Source: an uncultured Rubrobacteraceae bacterium
Lineage (GTDB): Bacteria > Actinomycetota > Rubrobacteria > Rubrobacterales > Rubrobacteraceae
DNA: 24,072 bases
Reading direction: 5' to 3'
NCBI GenBank assembly: GCA_902806015.1
Contig: CADCUZ010000136.1
Span: 1-24,072, forward strand
Positions 4,939 through 15,601 of the stretch are shown here, piece by piece (within the stretch, counting starts at the first letter, position 1; the number at the start of each line of letters is the position of its first letter). The notes beneath the pieces were generated by a model. The model had not been told where the DNA came from. It saw only the letters and a program-made list of their open reading frames with translations, and ran no database searches. Both the position numbers and the translations under genes were made by a program.

Positions 4939-5151
4939 CTACGCCTGTATGTTCGTCTGCTTCCACCGGGTGTGTTCGCCCAGGTTATCGGCCTCCGGGA
5001 ACTCCTCGCCCTTGGCGAGCTGGATCCGGATCGGGGGCAGCATCGTCCCCCGGTCGCAGACGAATGTTCCGGAGAACGGGGCCTTCTCGCCGGGTCCGAA
5101 GGTCGGACCGTAGGGGCGGTAGCGGGCGAGGATGTCGTCCAGGTTTGCCAT
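4939..5151 (-). CDS. Small YjzC-like protein, translationally coupled to serA
   Basis: A 70-residue soluble protein without signal peptide or membrane segment. The middle and C-terminal part (FGPGEKAPFSGTFVC, then IRIQLAKGEEFPE and a terminal HTRWKQ) follows the pattern of the short Bacillus YjzC family: PGDKAPxxGxY, KxxKLxxGDxFPE, then a basic W-containing tail. The resemblance is from memory. Its ATG shares one base with the TGA of serA (TGATG), so ribosomes finishing SerA should re-initiate here. That coupling supports it being a real gene despite its size. The N-terminus (ANLDDILARYRPYGP) is an added amphipathic stretch. Function unknown; the coupling suggests expression together with serine synthesis. 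Confidence 0.72.
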   Translation of the reverse strand: MANLDDILARYRPYGPTFGPGEKAPFSGTFVCDRGTMLPPIRIQLAKGEEFPEADNLGEHTRWKQTNIQA

Positions 5152-6731
5152 CAGAGGGTTACCGAGCGGACCCCGTTGAAGCCGGGAGTCTTCAGGAAGG
5201 TCCTTAGGACCTCTTCGGGGACGGGCTCGTCCACGGTGACGGCCATCGCGGCGCGAGACCCGGGCTCGCCGCGGCCTACGGCCATGTTGCCGATGTTGAT
5301 GCCGTGGTCGCCCAGGATGGAGCCGACCTTGCCGATCATGCCCGGCTGGTCCTCGTTGCGGATAAAGAGCATGTGCCTCTCGGGCACCACGTCGAAGTCG
5401 AAGCCCATCGCCTCGACCAGGCGCGGCTGCATCCGGGGACCCACGAGCGTCCCGCTCACGACGTTCTCCCCGCCCTCGCCCGCCAGGCGCAGCACGACCA
5501 GGCTCGTGTAATCCGCGCTCTCGGAGAGGCGCGCAGTCTCCAGGCGCAGGCCCCTGTCCTTCGCGAGTATCGGGGTGTTCACGAAGTTGAGGGGCTCGTG
5601 GACCATCGGGGCCAGGAGCCCCTTCTGGGCGGAGACGTCGAGCAGCCGCGTGTCGAAACCGGCGACCTCCCCCCTGTATTCCACCTTCAGGGTGTCCCCG
5701 GGGCGGTCCGTGAGCTGGTAGAGCAGGCTACCGAGCACCTCGCACAACCCGGAAAATTGGGCGACGAACTCGGCGCCCTCGCCCGCCGGCACGGGGGCGT
5801 TTATGGCGTGCATCGGGACCCGTCCCCCGAGCGCGGCGGCGACCTGCTCGGCGGCCGTGATGCCGGCGCGGTCCTGCGCTTCTGCGGTGCTCGCGCCGAG
5901 GTGCGGGGTGACGACGACGTTGGGGAGGGAAAAAATCGGGGACTCCGTCGTCGGCTCCTCCGCGAACACGTCGAGAGCCGCTCCGCCTATGACGCCACCC
6001 TTCAAGGCCTCGTAGAGCGCCGCCTCGTCCACGATGCCCCCGCGCGCCGCGTTTATGAGGTACGCGGCCGGCTTCATCTTCGCCAGGGCCTCCTCGCCTA
6101 CGAGCCCCATCGTCTGCGGCGTGCGGGGTACGTGCAGGGAGACGAAGTCCGCGTTCTCGAGGACCTCGTCGGTGGACTCGGCCCGCTCGACGTTCATCGA
6201 GCGCATCCGGTCCTCAGAGACGTAGGGGTCGTAGGCGAGGACCCGCATCCCCATCCCGAGGGCACCGCGGGCCACGATGGCCCCGACGTGCCCGAGTCCA
6301 ACGAGGCCGAGCGTCTTCTCCCTGACCTCCACGCCCTTGAAGGCGCTCCGCTTCCACTCGCCGCCCTTAAGCGAGGCGTCCGCCGCGGGTATGCGCCTGG
6401 CGGCGGCGAGCATGAGGCCCAAAGTGTGCTCCGCCGCGGCTACGGTGTTGCTCTCCGGGGCGTTGGCGACGATGACGCCGCGCTTGGTGGCGGCCTCTAT
6501 GTCTATGTTGTCCACCCCGATGCCGGCGCGGCCTATGGCCTTGAGGTTCCTCGCTTTGTCTATGACTTCGGCGGTCACCTGGGTGGCGCTGCGGATTATG
6601 AGGCCGTCGTACTCGCCGATCTTCTCCAGCAACTCGTCCGCGCTCAGGTCCAGAAGGACGTCGACCTCGAAGTCCCTATTCAGGAGCTCGATGCCAGGGT
6701 CGGCGAGCTTCTCCGAGATCAGAACCTTCAA
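5151..6731 (-). CDS. serA: D-3-phosphoglycerate dehydrogenase
   Basis: Oxidises 3-phosphoglycerate to 3-phosphohydroxypyruvate with NAD, the first step of serine synthesis. At 526 residues it is the long type. The substrate-binding halves flank a Rossmann domain with GLVGLGHVG (G145-x-G147-x-x-G150) and acidic residue D168. The catalytic set is R230 (NAARGG), E259 (DVFAEEP) and H277 (PHLGAST). An allosteric intervening domain covers about 315-445. A C-terminal ACT domain from about 453 (MLFIRNEDQPGMIGKVGSIL) usually gives serine feedback. The start is TTG at 6731, which overlaps the TGA of the upstream aminotransferase by three bases (TTGA), with GGGGTG as a likely ribosome site. It is the middle gene of a coupled three-gene operon. 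Confidence 0.97.
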   Translation of the reverse strand: MKVLISEKLADPGIELLNRDFEVDVLLDLSADELLEKIGEYDGLIIRSATQVTAEVIDKARNLKAIGRAGIGVDNIDIEAATKRGVIVANAPESNTVAAAEHTLGLMLAAARRIPAADASLKGGEWKRSAFKGVEVREKTLGLVGLGHVGAIVARGALGMGMRVLAYDPYVSEDRMRSMNVERAESTDEVLENADFVSLHVPRTPQTMGLVGEEALAKMKPAAYLINAARGGIVDEAALYEALKGGVIGGAALDVFAEEPTTESPIFSLPNVVVTPHLGASTAEAQDRAGITAAEQVAAALGGRVPMHAINAPVPAGEGAEFVAQFSGLCEVLGSLLYQLTDRPGDTLKVEYRGEVAGFDTRLLDVSAQKGLLAPMVHEPLNFVNTPILAKDRGLRLETARLSESADYTSLVVLRLAGEGGENVVSGTLVGPRMQPRLVEAMGFDFDVVPERHMLFIRNEDQPGMIGKVGSILGDHGINIGNMAVGRGEPGSRAAMAVTVDEPVPEEVLRTFLKTPGFNGVRSVTL

Positions 6732-7885
6732 GCGGTCACCCCGCTTTTGGAGAAGACCCGCTGCGCCGCGCCCACGCCCTTACCGAGCTCGATAGGGAAG
6801 TCCAGCGACTCCAGCGCGAGCTCCGTGGCCGCTATCGTGGCTATTATGTCGAAGGCGTCGAAAAATCCGCAGTGGCCGATGCGGAAGATCCTGCCCGCCA
6901 TGTCGGCCTGTCCGCCGGCGACCTGTATCCCGTGCTCCCTGAAGATCATGCGCACGAGCTGCTTGCCGTCGACGCCCTCGGGTACCCACGCCGCCGTGAC
7001 GGCGGAGTTGGGGTCCTCGTCCGGCCCGAAGAGCTGCAGGCCCATACCCTTGATCCCCTCACGCGAGGCGCGGCCGAGCAGGACGTGGCGCCGGAACACG
7101 TTCTCGATACCCTCGTCCAGGAGCTGCCGCAGGGCGACGTCGAGCTGGATGATAAGGCTGACCGCCGGCGTCCAGGCCGTCTGGGCCGGGTCCTTGGCGT
7201 ATGCCTTCTTCGAAGCGGTCCAGTCGAAGTAGAAGCGCGGAATCCTGGACTCCTCGTGCATCCGCATCGCCCGCTCACTTACGCTCACAAACCCGAGGCC
7301 GGGGGGGGACATCAGCGCCTTCTGCGAACCCGCGACGACCACGTCCACGCCCCAATCGTCCGTCCGCAGCTCGCAGGCTCCAAGCCCGGAGACCGCGTCC
7401 ACTATGGAGACGACGTTACCGGCGGCCTTGGCGAAGCCCTCAATGTCGTTCACGGTGCCGGTCGAGGTCTCCGAGAGCACGCAGACGGCGGCCTTTATCT
7501 CGGGATCGTTCGCCAGCGCCCGGGCTACCTCGTCGTTGTCCGCCTTCTGGCCCCAGTCGTACTCGAGTTCCGTCACCTCGAGGCCGAAGGCCCGGCCCAT
7601 CTTGACCCAGCGTCCGCCGAAGTTGCCATTGTTGACGACAAGGATCTTGTCCCCCGGCGATAAGAGGTTCTGGATAGCCCCCTCGAAGGCCCCCGTCCCG
7701 CTCGCCGCATAGGTAAATACGTCGTTTTCCGTAAGGAAGACCCTCTTCAGGGCCTCGTTGACGCGCGTAAAGACCTCGCCGAACTCCGGCGTCCTGTGGT
7801 GGATGATCGGCAACGCCCCCGCCGCGGAGACCTCCGGCGGTATCGGCGTCGGTCCGGGCGACATGAGACGGTATTTGTTCATCAT
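6728..7885 (-). CDS. Class V PLP aminotransferase (alanine/serine-glyoxylate type)
   Basis: A 385-residue fold-type I PLP enzyme of the serine-pyruvate/alanine-glyoxylate aminotransferase group. It begins with the diagnostic LMSPGPTPIPPEV. A60-ASGTGAFEG binds the cofactor phosphate. D163 in SIVDAVSG contacts the pyridine nitrogen. K189 in VVAGSQKALMSPPGLGF is the Schiff-base lysine. Two ATG codons occur in a row; the first (7885) is taken, with GAGGG about ten bases upstream. Its stop overlaps the serA start, so the pair is translationally coupled. Enzymes of this group next to SerA may transaminate phosphohydroxypyruvate in place of SerC, or interconvert serine/alanine and glyoxylate. The sequence alone cannot separate these, so no gene symbol is given. 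Confidence 0.93.
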   Translation of the reverse strand: MMNKYRLMSPGPTPIPPEVSAAGALPIIHHRTPEFGEVFTRVNEALKRVFLTENDVFTYAASGTGAFEGAIQNLLSPGDKILVVNNGNFGGRWVKMGRAFGLEVTELEYDWGQKADNDEVARALANDPEIKAAVCVLSETSTGTVNDIEGFAKAAGNVVSIVDAVSGLGACELRTDDWGVDVVVAGSQKALMSPPGLGFVSVSERAMRMHEESRIPRFYFDWTASKKAYAKDPAQTAWTPAVSLIIQLDVALRQLLDEGIENVFRRHVLLGRASREGIKGMGLQLFGPDEDPNSAVTAAWVPEGVDGKQLVRMIFREHGIQVAGGQADMAGRIFRIGHCGFFDAFDIIATIAATELALESLDFPIELGKGVGAAQRVFSKSGVTA

Positions 7886-8329: not shown

Positions 8330-9547
8330 CTACCCGAAGCCGGCTCCCTCTAGGGCGGGCAGCGCCGAGCGCGCGTAGCGGGCGGCGTAACCGGCGCCGG
8401 CGCGAGAGGGAGGGTCCGACGGCTTCCTGGATGTGAACTCCTCAGTCACGACGTCGGTGCGGATACGGCCCCCGCCTAGGTCCAGCCGCAGGCCGTCCCC
8501 GTCGCGCAACCTCCCCATAACGCCCCCCACCGCGGCCTCCGGCGAGAAGAGCGAGGCCCACAACCCCGCAACACCCTCGGGCGCGAGGCCGTCGGTTACC
8601 ACAGGCGTGGCGAGGCCCGCCTCCCCAAGTGCCGCCCCGAGGGCATCCAACCTGAGCAGCCCAGGACCCCCGCGCGGGCCGCACCCAAGAACCACTAGCA
8701 AGGCATCCGATCCGACCTCACCCGCGCGCACGGCCCTAACGGCCGTCCCTTCGCACGAGAAAACGCGGCACCCGCCGGCCGCCTCCAAGACGCCGGCGGG
8801 TGCCCGGCAGAGGGCCTCCCCGCCAGACGCCCTCGCCCGGACGAAAACGAAGCGGTGCGCACCGTCCAGGCTCGGTGGCGCCGACGGCAAGCCCTTCTTG
8901 AGTTGGCCTGAGACCGTCGGGCCATCGTGCAGCGCGTCGCCGAGCGCGGCGAGTAGGGCGGGAACCCCGTGCTCCGCCACCCAGGCAGGGGCCGCGGCGG
9001 GGGTCTCTGGCGCGAGCACCCGGACCATCTGCCCGAACCCCGCGACGCCGGCCTCGCGGGCCAGGGCGGAGAGATGGATCAACAGCCCCGGCCCACCGCC
9101 TGCCGCCACCCCGGCCCGCAGCGCGTTCGCGAGCGAGAAGTTGTCCAGCAGCCCACCGGGACGCGGTCCACCCGACGCGGTCCCCGCCGCCACGCCGGCC
9201 GCGTTCCCTGACGGCGGCGAAAACCCGAGCGCCGTAAGGGCGGCCGAGAGCGGCGTGCCGGGGGGGGCGTCGCAGACCGCCGGAAGGCCAAGCCGGGCGG
9301 CGGCGAGGAGCATCCCGAAGAGCTGCTCCGGGTCATCCGAAGCGAGAAGCAGGGCGTCGAGGTTCGCGCCGGCGCAGGAGACCTCCGTCGCGTCCGCCAC
9401 CCATTCCCGGGCAAGGGCGACACCGCCGGGCGGCCTGGCCGTCGGCAGGCGCAGCGGCACGGGCTCGGCCCCGGCGGCGAGGACGGCGTCCGGGTGGGCG
9501 GACGGTTCGAAAAACGGTATTCCGACGTCCGGCGGCCGGGGCCTCAA
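8330..9547 (-). CDS. Diverged IlvD/Edd-fold protein, probably catalytically inactive
   Basis: A 405-residue protein (true dehydratases have about 550-620) that follows dihydroxyacid dehydratase in order. A46-REWVADATE aligns with SRELIADSVE. DALLLASDDPEQLFGMLLAA (64-83) aligns with the CDKxxPGMLMAA segment. LANALRAGVAAGGG aligns with the NAxxxDIAMGGSTN helix. TVSGQLKKGL (211-220) aligns with the middle hinge. C289-GPRGGPG, VTDG (317-320), SPEAAVGG and LRDGDGLRLD form the C-terminal barrel. Key residues are lost: the CDK cysteine and lysine are S70-D71-D72, the second cluster-cysteine block (CGxC) is deleted, and the TDGRFSGG serine is replaced (TDGLAPEG). The family is clear; dehydration activity is therefore unlikely. 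The start is TTG at 9547, seven bases after gatB's stop, with a weak ribosome site. Confidence 0.8.
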   Translation of the reverse strand: MRPRPPDVGIPFFEPSAHPDAVLAAGAEPVPLRLPTARPPGGVALAREWVADATEVSCAGANLDALLLASDDPEQLFGMLLAAARLGLPAVCDAPPGTPLSAALTALGFSPPSGNAAGVAAGTASGGPRPGGLLDNFSLANALRAGVAAGGGPGLLIHLSALAREAGVAGFGQMVRVLAPETPAAAPAWVAEHGVPALLAALGDALHDGPTVSGQLKKGLPSAPPSLDGAHRFVFVRARASGGEALCRAPAGVLEAAGGCRVFSCEGTAVRAVRAGEVGSDALLVVLGCGPRGGPGLLRLDALGAALGEAGLATPVVTDGLAPEGVAGLWASLFSPEAAVGGVMGRLRDGDGLRLDLGGGRIRTDVVTEEFTSRKPSDPPSRAGAGYAARYARSALPALEGAGFG

Positions 9548-9554
9548 TGGGTTC

Positions 9555-11012
<1,458 letters not shown>

Positions 11013-11215: not shown

Positions 11216-11689
11216 TTACACCTGCCTTTCCGTAAACGTCTGCTGGGTGGTCAAAGATGCCCTTTTTTGGTACCCCACCAACGCTTTGTTTTCCTGAGGG
11301 GTCACGTAGTTGTACTTGCGGACCTTACCCACATAGAGTTCGAGAAGCATGGCAGGTTCCGCCTGGACTTCAGTGCACGTTAGCAACCCAGTAGCAGCGA
11401 GTTTCCTCGGGTATTCGTGGTCTTTCGGCGGTTTCGGTCGGCCGTCGCCAAGATCAGGATGGCAGCTCTCTAGTACCGCGACCGACATCCTACCAGTCCA
11501 GTCTTACTCGATTTCATGTAGGTACCGGAGAACTGCGCCGATCATACCGGTTTCGATAAAACGTCGCTGATCTTCGCTCGAGGAGGCATCCACGTAGATC
11601 GGCCTGACTCGGGCAACCATCTCCGCTAGCGTTTCGCAACGCTCCTTCAGTTTTGCCCTTGTCTGCTCTCCTGTTGGCCACGATTCGGT
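11216..11689 (-). pseudogene. Decayed unknown gene between gatA and gatB
   Basis: One minus-strand frame runs from after a TAA at 11690 to a TAA at 11216, interrupted by a single in-frame TAA at 11504-11506. The parts read like one helical protein: RAKLKERCETLAEMVARVRP, EDQRRFIETGMIGAVLRYLH, then after the stop MSVAVLESCHPDLGDGRPKP, LLELYVGKVRKYNYVTPQEN and a tail TTQQTFTERQV. An ATG at 11488 could start a 90-residue remnant. After its end the +2 frame stays protein-like (DVYGKAGVTLLTLNGEDLKR), suggesting a further frameshift. Third positions are much less GC-rich than in the neighbours, pointing to transferred DNA. I recognise no family; it could instead be two tiny genes. Confidence 0.4.
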
Positions 11690-11711: not shown

Positions 11712-13169
11712 TCAGTCACTACTAGGCTTTAGGGTGAAGCGAAAGTCCGCCGCCCGTTCGGCGGCGCGGGCCGCGCGGAGCAGCATCGGCTCGGTGAAGT
11801 GGTCGCCCATGAGCTGGACGCCGACGGGGAGGCCGTCGGAGAGCCCACCGGGGATGCTTATGGCGGGAACGCCGGCTAAAGACGCCGGGACGGCGCAGAT
11901 GTCCTGCAGGTACATTGCGAGCGGATCATCGGTCTTGGCCCCGATCTCGAACGCCACAGAGGGCGAGGTCGGGGAGACGAGGACGTCGTAGCGCGCGTAG
12001 GCGTCGCGGAAGTCCTCCACGATCTTAGTCCGTACCTTCTGGGCCTGGGCGTAGTAGGCATCGTAGTAGCCGCTGGAGAGGGCGTAGGTACCGAGCATGA
12101 TCCTGCGCTTCGCCTCCGCCCCGAAGCCCCTCTCCCTGGTCTTCCGGTACATCTCGTGCACACCGTCGGCCTGCACCCGAAGGCCGTAGCGGACCCCGTC
12201 GAAACGGGCCAGGTTCGAGGAGACCTCCGCCGGTGCGATGATGTAGTAGGCCTCCAGCGCGTAGTAGGCATGGGGCAGGCTGACCTCCCCCACCTCCGCC
12301 CCCGCCGCTTCCAGGCCTTCGGCCACCTTCGAGGTCACCCCGCGCACGCCGGCGTCTATGCGCTCGTCCATGAGCTCCGTGACGACGCCCACCCGCAGCC
12401 CTTGGACGCCGTCCTCGAGGCCTGCCAGATAGTCCGGGACCTCGACGTTGGCGCTCGTGGAGTCGAGCGGGTCGTGGCCGGCTATGGCCTGGAGAAGGAG
12501 GGCGGAGTCGCGCACGTCGCGGGTCATCGGGCCTATGCAGTCGAGGGAGGAACCGAACGAGATGAGGCCGTACCGTGAGACCCGCCCGTAGGTGGGCTTC
12601 AGCCCCACGATGCCGCAGAGCGCCGCCGGCTGGCGCACCGACCCGCCGGTATCCGTCCCGAGCGCCCACCAGCACTCGGCCGCGGCCACCGCCGCCGCCG
12701 AGCCACCGGAGGAGCCGCCCGGCACCCGGGCCGGGTCCCACGGGTTTTTCGTCGGGCCGTAGGCGGAGTTCTCCGTCGAGGAGCCCATCGCGAACTCGTC
12801 CATGTTCGACTTGCCTACCATCACCGGGCTCTCGCCGAAGCTCCTTAGCGCCGAGGCGTCGTAAAGGGGCGTGAAGTCTTGCAGGATCTTGGACCCGCAC
12901 GTCGTCTTGACCCCGCGCGTGGAGAGCACGTCCTTCACGGCTATGGGCACGCCCTCCCAGGGCTTTACGCCGCCGCCGCGCAGGCGCCCGTCCACTCGCC
13001 CGGCCCGCTCCAGCGCCAGCTCGGGCGTGGTCGTGACGAAGGAGTTGAGGCCGCCGTCCACCTCCTCGACGCGCGCGTTGGCGGCCTCGGCGGCCTCCCG
13101 GACGGTGACCTCGCCGGTGCCCACCTTCTCGGACAACCCGTGGGCGGTGAGGTCCAGCAGGCCGCCCAT
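11712..13169 (-). CDS. gatA: Asp/Glu-tRNA amidotransferase subunit A
   Basis: The amidase subunit of GatCAB; it hydrolyses glutamine and channels ammonia to GatB. At 485 residues it carries the full amidase-signature Ser-cisSer-Lys triad: K79 (IAVKDV), S153 (GGSSGGSAAA) and S177 (GTDTGGSVRQPA), with the 24-residue Ser-Ser spacing of the family. GLKPTYGRVSRYGL and the substrate-loop FGSSLDCIGPMTRD follow, and YALSSGYYDAYY lies in the C-terminal half. The ATG at 13169 shares one base with the TGA of gatC (TGATG), so the two are translationally coupled. gatB is not immediately downstream; the 700-base break holds a decayed gene. Confidence 0.98.
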   Translation of the reverse strand: MGGLLDLTAHGLSEKVGTGEVTVREAAEAANARVEEVDGGLNSFVTTTPELALERAGRVDGRLRGGGVKPWEGVPIAVKDVLSTRGVKTTCGSKILQDFTPLYDASALRSFGESPVMVGKSNMDEFAMGSSTENSAYGPTKNPWDPARVPGGSSGGSAAAVAAAECWWALGTDTGGSVRQPAALCGIVGLKPTYGRVSRYGLISFGSSLDCIGPMTRDVRDSALLLQAIAGHDPLDSTSANVEVPDYLAGLEDGVQGLRVGVVTELMDERIDAGVRGVTSKVAEGLEAAGAEVGEVSLPHAYYALEAYYIIAPAEVSSNLARFDGVRYGLRVQADGVHEMYRKTRERGFGAEAKRRIMLGTYALSSGYYDAYYAQAQKVRTKIVEDFRDAYARYDVLVSPTSPSVAFEIGAKTDDPLAMYLQDICAVPASLAGVPAISIPGGLSDGLPVGVQLMGDHFTEPMLLRAARAAERAADFRFTLKPSSD

Positions 13170-13450
13170 CAGTCGATCCTCGGGACCGCGAAGAGGTCGT
13201 CCGCCGGGTCCGGTGCCGGGGCAAGGGCCTCCTCCCGGGGCAGCTCCGGTCGCGGTTCGTCCGGGCGCGAAACGTTCGAGAGGTTCAGCGGGTTTGCCGT
13301 CGGCGGGGTGTCCGCGAGGTCGAGCTCCCGGATCTTCTCGATGCTCTCCAGGATGGCATCCAGTTGCCCCCCCATCTCCTTGACCTCCTCGTCCGTCAAA
13401 CCCAGCCGCGCCAGGTTGGCGACGTGCCGCACCTGCTCCTCGGATATCAT
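13169..13450 (-). CDS. gatC: Asp/Glu-tRNA amidotransferase subunit C
   Basis: The small subunit that wraps around GatA and stabilises the GatA-GatB contact. The 93-residue length is typical. The helical N-terminus (EEQVRHVANLARLGLTDEE, GQLDAILESIEKIRELD) is followed by the extended TPPTANPLNLSNVSRPDEPR belt and a C-terminal LFAVPRI. The ATG at 13450 has GGAGG six bases upstream. It is the first gene of the gatCA pair and 62 bases after the pyrophosphatase stop, so the two could share a transcript. Confidence 0.97.
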   Translation of the reverse strand: MISEEQVRHVANLARLGLTDEEVKEMGGQLDAILESIEKIRELDLADTPPTANPLNLSNVSRPDEPRPELPREEALAPAPDPADDLFAVPRID

Positions 13451-13512: not shown

Positions 13513-15135
13513 CTAGAGGATCGATAACAGCGCGGGCGCCACCTGCTTTTTGCGGCTCATCACACCGGGGAGGTCTATGACGCCGTTCCGGGGCTCGGAG
13601 TCGAAGGCCTGATGCACGGCCGAGCAGTCCCCGACGCACAAGAGATAGGTGCCGCCCTGCGTGATGTCCGTGACCATGAGCGCGGAAAAGCTATAGCCGT
13701 TCTTGTCGCGCAGCTCTTCGAGGGCCGAGACGAGCTCGTCCTTCCGCTCCAAGAGGCCAGGCCCAACGGTCTCTATCTGGGAGACGCTCACGCTCTGGCC
13801 GGAGCTGGTCCCGTACTCCTTGGCGTCGCGGCCCACGATCTCCTCGCCGGAGAGACCCGAGACGTCGGACGAAGCCTCGAACATCTCGCGACCAAATTCC
13901 TCGGCGTCGAGGTCGAGGAACTCTTCGAGGATCTTGACGACCTCGCGGTCGCGGTCGGTGGTAGTCGGGGAGTTCAGGATCACGGTGTCGGAGAGTATCG
14001 CCGCGAGGAGCATCTTCGCGGTTGGCTCCTCGGGGCGCAGCCCGGCGGTCTTGAAGCGCTCGACGACCAGGGTCGCCGTCGAACCGACGGGGTCGAAGGT
14101 GGCCGGTATCGGGGAGGCGGTCTCTATGTCGCCGACGTGGTGGTGGTCCAGGATCTCGACGACCTCGGCCCTTTCCACGCCCTTGACGCTCTGGCCGACC
14201 TCGGCGTGGTCCACGAGGAGTACCCGCCGCGGGCGCGGGTTCAAGAGGTTCGTCCTGGTGACGACCCCTGTCGGGACCATGTTCCCGTCCACCGCTATGG
14301 CGGCGCGGTAGTGGACCTCCATAACCTGCTCGGTTATCTCCGTTATGAGGTCGTCGGGGTGGACGGTCAGCGGGTTCTCGCTCATCACCTCCCAGCACGG
14401 GACGGAGATCTGTATCAGGCGGCTGGTCACGTAGGAGTCCAGGGGGGAGAGCACCACGGTCGTCCCCCGCTCCTGGGCCATCTTCAGCACCCCACCTTCC
14501 GGCCGCACCCCGTTCGAGATGACGAGCACCCCGGCACCAAGCTCTATGGCCCGCCTTTGGGCCTGAGGACGGTCCCCGATCACCACGACGTCTCCTTGCT
14601 TCATAGAATGGCCCATCGAGTCCACGCCCATCGAGATCACCCACAGCTGCCCCGAACTTTCCCGGTCCTCTCCGACGAGCAGTTCCCCTTCGAGCACCTC
14701 GAGCATCGCCCCGACGCTGACCGGACTTTCCCTGAAAGACGACGCCCCCCGGGACTCCCTGACGTACATGCGCGCCAGGTTCCGCTCCGTGATGATCCCG
14801 ACTAGCGACCCGTCGTCGTCCACTATGGGAAGCTGGCTTATGTTCCGCTGGGCCATCGTGAGTCCCACGTTGCGAAGCGGGTCGTTCTTGCGGGCGACGG
14901 CGACGTCCCGCGACATCACGTCCTTGACCCGGAGCATTATGTGCTCGAGAAGCTTCGGCTCCTCCGCCCCACTCCTTTCGAGCGCCCAGGCGGTCTGAGG
15001 ATTGACCGTGCCCAGGCGGGCCGGCGCGTAGTCGTTCTCGGGGTCGACGAGGTTCTTGAGCTCCGCGTACCCGATGGCCGATGCTATCGTGTCGGTATCC
15101 GGGTTTTTGTGGCCTGTGACGTAGACGTGTGGCAA
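13513..15135 (-). CDS. ppaC: CBS/DRTGG-domain manganese-dependent (family II) inorganic pyrophosphatase
   Basis: Hydrolyses pyrophosphate to phosphate and pulls biosynthetic reactions forward. The 540 residues form a DHH half split by a regulatory insert, then a DHHA2 half. H9, D13 and D15 (GHKNPDTD) bind metal. Insert: CBS 1 at about 70-125, a DRTGG-like domain at about 140-245 (GDRPQAQ at 187) and CBS 2 at about 247-300. The catalytic part resumes with D309-H (LLVDH), D330-H-H (EILDHHH) and D383 (LSDTVILNSPTTTDRD). The DHHA2 tail ends in MSRKKQVAP. CBS pairs in this family bind AMP/ADP (inhibitory) or ATP (activating), and the DRTGG variant diadenosine polyphosphates. The TTG start at 15135 is chosen because it opens directly on PHVYVTGHK and has GGAGAA upstream; open codons beyond it do not look coding. 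Confidence 0.95.
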   Translation of the reverse strand: MPHVYVTGHKNPDTDTIASAIGYAELKNLVDPENDYAPARLGTVNPQTAWALERSGAEEPKLLEHIMLRVKDVMSRDVAVARKNDPLRNVGLTMAQRNISQLPIVDDDGSLVGIITERNLARMYVRESRGASSFRESPVSVGAMLEVLEGELLVGEDRESSGQLWVISMGVDSMGHSMKQGDVVVIGDRPQAQRRAIELGAGVLVISNGVRPEGGVLKMAQERGTTVVLSPLDSYVTSRLIQISVPCWEVMSENPLTVHPDDLITEITEQVMEVHYRAAIAVDGNMVPTGVVTRTNLLNPRPRRVLLVDHAEVGQSVKGVERAEVVEILDHHHVGDIETASPIPATFDPVGSTATLVVERFKTAGLRPEEPTAKMLLAAILSDTVILNSPTTTDRDREVVKILEEFLDLDAEEFGREMFEASSDVSGLSGEEIVGRDAKEYGTSSGQSVSVSQIETVGPGLLERKDELVSALEELRDKNGYSFSALMVTDITQGGTYLLCVGDCSAVHQAFDSEPRNGVIDLPGVMSRKKQVAPALLSIL

Positions 15136-15389
15136 GTCGTTCTCCGATGTTTTTCTGTGCCGAGTCCCGACCGTTTGGGCTCGGTGCGAACACCCACCGG
15201 ACGCCAACCGGCCCAAAATCGGCCCGTTTGTTCGTGGCCGAAAGGGTACCAGAGATGGGGTCCAGGAACCGCGCGAGCCCGCGCGGGCGGCAGCCATCTG
15301 CCGGGTGTTGGAGAGGGCGTGCGCGTGGCGGCGCGGCGTCAAATGCGCCAGGTGGCGCAAGACCGCTCTAGGCTCCCCGCTCCCACCTC

Positions 15390-15601
15390 TCACCCGCCGC
15401 CTAGCCACCTCCACCAGGCTGGCCCCCGTTGCTCCCCGGGCCCGACCAGCGCCCTCTCTTCTTCCAGCTTCGCCCGGAGCCTCTCAGGGGGAGCCTCTCA
15501 GGGCGCTCCCCCGCCAGCCGCAGGGCCTCCCTGAGGTTGAGCTGGTCGACCTCCGCGGCCACCTTGAGGCAGGTGGCCTTCGAGGCTATCCGGGTTCGCG
15601 A
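15390..15601 (-). pseudogene. Unknown gene fragment broken by a 14-bp tandem duplication
   Basis: The minus-strand frame opens after a TGA at 15602-15604 and reads KATCLKVAAEVDQLNLREAL, then RLAGERPERL. There a 14-bp direct duplication shifts the frame. Removing one copy restores a continuous frame: RAKLEEERALVGPGEQRG, then PAWWRWLGGG and TGA at 15390. Third positions in this restored frame are almost all G or C, as in the neighbouring genes, so it was coding until recently. No start or N-terminal part remains, so it is a C-terminal fragment of about 66 residues. I recognise no family. The rest of the 15136-15698 gap shows nothing I can support. Confidence 0.5.
15477..15504. repeat. 14-bp tandem duplication
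   Basis: GAGCCTCTCAGGG occurs at 15477-15489 and again at 15491-15503, a perfect period of 14 bases. Fourteen is not a multiple of three, and the duplication accounts for the frameshift in the minus-strand fragment that spans it. Confidence 0.85.

Follow-up and report, generated by a model that had tools for sequence, protein, structure and literature searches.

The window, i.e., the whole stretch of 24,072 nucleotides (nt) analysed here (contig CADCUZ010000136.1 of an uncultured Rubrobacteraceae bacterium), holds a gene for a short protein related to dihydroxyacid dehydratase (DHAD, the product of ilvD). This gene lies directly behind gatB, and its product is best explained, on balance probably, as a class-specific pseudoenzyme derived from DHAD that is now a non-dehydratase partner linked to gatB. 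The main genes of the locus are the following.

8330..9547, minus strand: gene of the short IlvD/Edd-fold protein, 405 amino acids (aa), TTG start
9555..11012, minus strand: gatB (GatB_N, GatB_Yqey), directly upstream, with 7 nt between its stop and the short gene
11216..11488, minus strand: open reading frame (ORF) of 90 aa between gatA and gatB, without a Pfam match
11712..13169, minus strand: gatA (Amidase)
13169..13450, minus strand: gatC
6728..7885, minus strand: agt, class-V aminotransferase, the next gene of an ancestral block
5151..6731, minus strand: serA, D-3-phosphoglycerate dehydrogenase, also the next gene of that block

On the minus strand the order is therefore gatC, gatA, the 90-aa ORF, gatB, the short gene, the class-V aminotransferase and serA. 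Read from 9547 to 8330, the short gene has no internal stop across its 405 codons, in agreement with the clean frame described in an earlier, sequence-only reading of the same DNA, which had also proposed an IlvD/Edd relationship for the product.

This relationship is borne out by the search results, given that both Pfam domains score over their cut-offs, ILV_EDD_C (PF24877) with 73.8 bits (E 1.6e-20, cut-off 27.7) and ILVD_EDD_N (PF00920) with 36.7 bits (E 3.6e-9, cut-off 27), and that an alpha/beta plus beta-barrel fold is predicted, which together place the protein in the IlvD/Edd superfamily. The DHAD (IlvD) model ranked first in NCBIfam, with 101.4 bits, far under its 644-bit cut-off, and the nearest PDB sequences are DHADs (best E 3.8e-18). 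The predicted single-chain model covers the entire two-domain IlvD fold over residues 1-402, with 23-29% identity to DHADs in the aligned part, so the resemblance claimed from an SREL helix to the C-terminal barrel stands as regards the fold, while the helix itself reads AREW. The shortening, put earlier at about 150-200 residues, comes to ~150-180 residues relative to the compared DHADs, whose lengths were taken from open frames with untrimmed starts (20 of 32 have 555-586 aa, and the other 12 are longer), and it involves both the loops and the N-terminus. An excerpt of PMC11316719 describes the IlvD/Edd active site as forming at the dimer interface with the partner's N-terminal helix, which in L-arabinonate dehydratase comprises residues 22-30. 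The model of the short protein begins at residue 35-46 of most aligned chains, and at residue 38 of L-arabinonate dehydratase, and, since it starts after the helix residues given in that excerpt, the protein would have no segment reaching the partner's active site.

The active site itself has been dismantled. According to an excerpt of PMC9314677, the IlvD/Edd enzymes need three cysteines for the iron-sulfur (Fe-S) cluster, a magnesium (Mg) ion coordinated by an Asp or Glu, an Asp, a Glu and a carboxylated Lys, as well as a catalytic Ser. Losses in all three sets of residues had been claimed from the window alone. The alignment of 30 short sequences of more than 395 aa with 32 DHADs (among them D_L094, which is probably in the wrong frame, so that DHAD conservation is slightly understated) confirms this claim, as does a set of 215 family sequences, made up of those 30 and of 185 (380-450 aa) of 213 family proteins. 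The third cluster-Cys column is a gap in 97% of the 30 short sequences and the Pro adjoining the first cluster Cys is a gap in 30/30, the remaining active-site columns holding different residues; the second cluster Cys is kept in none of the 215. As for the Mg ligands, the Asp/Glu is kept in 3/215, and the Asp, the carboxylated Lys and the Glu in 0/215 each; the catalytic-Ser column has Pro in 98% and Ser in 3/215, and TDGRxS is found in 0/215. In the window, the columns in question are occupied as follows.

9326..9334, minus strand: codons 72-74, which read D-P-E and align with the second cluster Cys and the Asp-Lys Mg ligands
8681..8683, minus strand: codon 289, a Cys aligned with the Mg-ligand Glu (EGPKGGPG)
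8579..8581, minus strand: codon 323, Pro in the catalytic-Ser column (TDGRFSGG)

The short family has also lost STN from the GGSTN motif. It keeps from DHAD the residues R47-E48-D52, N141, H158, D319 and E337, the GPxGGPG loop, TDG and PE, and it has the conserved, family-specific residues W49, R239, P323, W330, Y387, R390 and F404. As judged from the aligned residues, IlvD/Edd chemistry as known is predicted to be impossible for the short protein, which fits the definition of a pseudoenzyme, i.e., an enzyme homologue without catalytic residues that is kept by selection.

A profile search found one copy of the short gene in 37 of 39 Rubrobacteria genomes, and the two others (one of 1.3 Mb) also have no gatB in their assemblies, so that missing sequence is the simple reading there. 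Across 396 Actinomycetota, the 37 genomes with a match at E <= 1e-28, a cut-off that excludes ordinary DHADs, are all of them these Rubrobacteria, and 359 gave no match, with at most four candidates scored per genome, which means that distant short relatives could escape. Similarly, when 60 genomes were scanned with the Pfam C-domain, the short, low-scoring matches were those of five Rubrobacteria, and the other short frames had ordinary DHAD scores (G065, G088) or covered 48 profile positions (G051). The genome scans comprise Actinomycetota, and other phyla were covered through the best 120 relatives listed from each of two protein searches. Of the 7997 candidates scored with the short protein, 1136 were relatives at E <= 1e-3, the best 120 having 366-427 aa and the taxon names Rubrobacter, Rubrobacteraceae or Actinomycetota, and a divergent orthologue used as the second query retrieved 141, the best 120 having 355-477 aa. 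No copy was confirmed in viral contigs among 84 stretches that matched a pattern.

The family is under purifying constraint. The ratio of nonsynonymous to synonymous substitution rates (dN/dS) of the short gene is 0.12-0.35, well under 1 in 10/10 pairs (NG86, with synonymous sites high in some pairs), and that of gatB is 0.07-0.15, which upholds the earlier view that the gene is selected rather than decaying. A local degenerate copy is ruled out by this selection, by the presence in 37/39 genomes, and by the absence of the full catalytic set from all 215 family sequences. An intact DHAD was also present in each of the five Rubrobacteria whose DHAD was checked, with all six catalytic motifs tested.

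The gatB unit proposed earlier recurs in every Rubrobacteria locus compared, given that gatB lies directly upstream on the same strand in 35 of 35 loci (34 Rubrobacteria loci and the window), with a gap of -13 to 138 nt and a median of 6, and that the order in genomes G015 and G034 agrees by coordinates. Start codons could be chosen in 32 of these loci (L039, L051 and L070 gave none), and they comprise 13 TTG, 13 GTG and 6 ATG, with a gap of 0-10 nt in 25 of the 32; such weak starts just behind the gatB stop suggest coupled translation. Other junctions of the same loci served as a yardstick, with gatC-gatA tight in 24/24 and agt-serA in 20/20, gatA-gatB in 7/25, and the short gene and agt in 2/21, so that the junction of gatB with the short gene has stayed tight while its neighbours moved. 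No conserved downstream partner of the short gene was seen in these loci, where the downstream genes vary. Overlapping or abutting its 3' end are, for example, genes for a MOSC-domain protein (L051:7219-8019, plus a second at L064:5409-6230, on the minus and plus strands, respectively) and for a pterin-binding, dihydropteroate synthase-type protein (L052:9492-10379, plus strand).

The position of the short gene is an old one. Among other Actinomycetota, 47 genomes have both gatB and a true ilvD, 18 of them on a single contig, and in 11 of these 18 the ilvD follows at most 12 kb downstream of gatB in the same orientation. Both ilvD and serA are present in 46 genomes, with ilvD ahead of serA within 12 kb in 17/22. 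In locus L105, for example, the order is gatC, gatA, gatB, ilvD, ilvB, ilvN, ilvC, class-V aminotransferase and serA, with other genes between. This order recurs in locus L112, where ilvD is preceded by aconitase-family and isopropylmalate-dehydrogenase-type genes. In the window, the ilvD slot of this gatCAB-ilvD-ilvBNC-agt-serA block is taken by the short gene. A tblastn search of the window and the 34 Rubrobacteria loci, 21 of these 35 holding at least 5 kb downstream, found no ilvB, ilvN or ilvC, and it detected all three in the control locus L111. A working ilvD lies ~480-640 kb from the short gene on the same near-genome-length contig in G013, G016 and G017; that of G016 adjoins ruvB (locus L121), away from the gat and serA genes. 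A duplicate of the Rubrobacteria's own DHAD is weakly disfavoured as the source (p-AU 0.040, on a long stem).

Taken together, these observations make it very probable that the short gene is an exapted non-dehydratase at the ancestral ilvD slot: the known active site has been lost and the gene is nevertheless kept directly behind gatB, so a new job was probably given to an old enzyme. The ilvD copy at the gat locus would have given up dehydration chemistry at a time when the pathway was served by another DHAD, the genes separating this copy from gatB would have been removed, and the short gene would then have become translationally coupled to gatB. What its product does now would not involve dehydratase chemistry. 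Most likely it is a factor that binds a protein or a ligand and is produced together with GatB, and a ligand would probably sit in the retained GPxGGPG/TDG cleft. The selection on the fold, the kept cleft loops and the derived tight junction all fit such a factor. The first guess at a role is that it assists or regulates the GatCAB tRNA amidotransferase, and the co-occurrence and tight gatB linkage expected of such a factor are found in 35/35 loci. That the protein acts physically or functionally with GatCAB ranks first among the roles, as a tentative proposal.

Several points weigh against this explanation. Because the short gene occupies the place of the ancestral ilvD, part of its gatB linkage is inherited, and the neighbourhood alone is therefore no demonstration of GatCAB function; the link through co-transcription drawn in the sequence-only reading keeps the tight derived junction on its side, and only this derived tightness argues for coupling. 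The suggested branched-chain link likewise holds historically, through the ancestral locus, and is not demonstrated functionally. The ancestral gatB-ilvD order was not seen in 7 of the 18 one-contig genomes. In the tree (which leaves out D_L094, with its branch of 6.8, as well as SYN_L108 and SYN_L107), the short family forms one clade (100/100) on a stem so long that its attachment to the DHADs is unresolved, and it is therefore gene order, not the tree, that speaks for the syntenic ilvD as the exact ancestor. The dN of the short gene is 2.3-4.8 times that of gatB, and rate covariation between the two gave no signal in 12 genomes (partial r 0.12, vs 0.37 for the short gene and gatA). One copy (G029/L062, G029:C1:2789802-2791011, on a 4.2-Mb contig) has a broken frame, through sequencing error or true loss. 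Binding of GatB or of any ligand is putative, and a set of new cysteines leaves room for new chemistry.

These cysteines are the basis of the second-ranked possibility, an unlikely one, of a re-tooled enzyme or a metal/thiol protein with a new site on Cys247, Cys260 and Cys289, together with H158, D319, E337 and the family-specific R390. Cys260 is present in 97%, Cys247 in 96% and Cys289 in 90% of the 215 sequences (66, 65 and 58, respectively, of 69 representatives at 75% identity), Cys289 occupies the column of the Mg-ligand Glu, residues 247 and 260 fall in successive strands of the predicted model (244-250 and 255-263), and many other family-specific residues are near-invariant. All three cysteines occur in 184/215, so a new metal or thiol site is possible in most members. 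On the other hand, at least one is missing in 31/215, position 289 can carry H, Y, F, S, A, V, R, Q, L or G in place of Cys, and six sequences (L049, L068, L069, P0172, P0184, P0191) have lost both 260 and 289 while keeping 247, which means that such a site is not a class-wide requirement. The relocated cluster ligands that the sequence-only reading had named as an outcome contrary to its view may have a partial counterpart in three new conserved cysteines that are neither at the Fe-S cluster positions nor in every member, and an Fe-S site rebuilt on three universal cysteines is not supported as universal.

Third, and somewhat less likely again, the short protein may be a regulatory partner of the true DHAD, in mixed dimers, or a sensor of branched-chain precursors that binds the dihydroxyacid or ketoacid without converting it. 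The whole IlvD fold with its GPxGGPG and TDG loops, the ilvB, ilvN and ilvC neighbours of the ancestral slot and the location of IlvD/Edd active sites at the dimer interface (excerpt of PMC11316719) are all compatible with this. However, the true ilvD is ~480-640 kb away in the three genomes mentioned, ilvB, ilvN and ilvC were not found in the window and the 34 loci around the short gene, the STN of GGSTN is gone, and the N-terminal segment reaching the partner's active site would be missing. More speculative, and rather improbable, is a class-wide conversion in place of the ancestral ilvD into a thiol- or metal-based sensor (Cys247/260/289 in the old Mg/Fe-S cleft), synthesised with GatB and tuning the tRNA-dependent Gln/Asn supply to the redox state or to branched-chain precursors. 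A functionless, slowly decaying ilvD leftover carried along by gatB would account for the slot, the faster evolution than that of the neighbours and the broken frame in G029, but is highly improbable given the low dN/dS in every pair, the open frames in all copies except that of G029 and those truncated at the edge of a contig, the near-invariant W49, Y387, R390 and P323, and the tight gatB junction kept while the neighbours moved.

The gatB-linked pseudoenzyme also differs from the known members of the superfamily. It shares with the DHADs of Synechocystis (6nte) and M. tuberculosis (6ovt) the two-domain fold, the kept loops and the ancestral slot, and differs from them in its length and in the lost [2Fe-2S] cluster cysteines, Mg ligands and catalytic Ser. 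The sugar-acid dehydratases (L-arabinonate 5j83, D-xylonate 5oyn) match with a lower Z than DHAD, and the short protein shows the same losses relative to them; its family consensus ends in GAGFG, without the C-terminal His conserved in the sugar-acid dehydratase subfamily (excerpt of PMC11316719). Aconitase X, the isopropylmalate isomerase small subunit and RraA (7cnr, 3vba, 3c8o) give single-domain matches in the range of a common arrangement, with no N-terminal half. The AstD-type DHAD homologue (9ix7), a resistant, working dehydratase, is different in that the short family has lost the dehydratase residues. No description of such a protein or gene pair was found in the titles and abstract openings of an open-access library, the scope of this search. 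In public sources many family members are called "dihydroxy-acid dehydratase", a name that finds no support in their active site and that would mislead pathway reconstruction in Rubrobacteria. What sets the case apart is that the chemistry appears to have been lost by the copy at the ancestral locus rather than by a stray duplicate, and that this copy is then locked to a tRNA-amidation gene throughout a class; if the short protein does bind GatCAB, indirect tRNA aminoacylation would have a component that has gone unrecognised.

Some minor observations concern the gat genes and their surroundings. The 90-aa ORF of the window is possibly a small gene, possibly a remnant; one other locus (L043) has a stretch 43% similar to it, also between gatA and gatB. 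The aligned span of gatA in L042 has an in-frame TAA, which is either an assembly error or real. Upstream of gatC, the window has one further gene.

13513..15414, minus strand: DHH/DHHA2 protein with CBS and DRTGG domains

This domain set is that of a family of regulated inorganic pyrophosphatases, and the called start of the protein looks too early.
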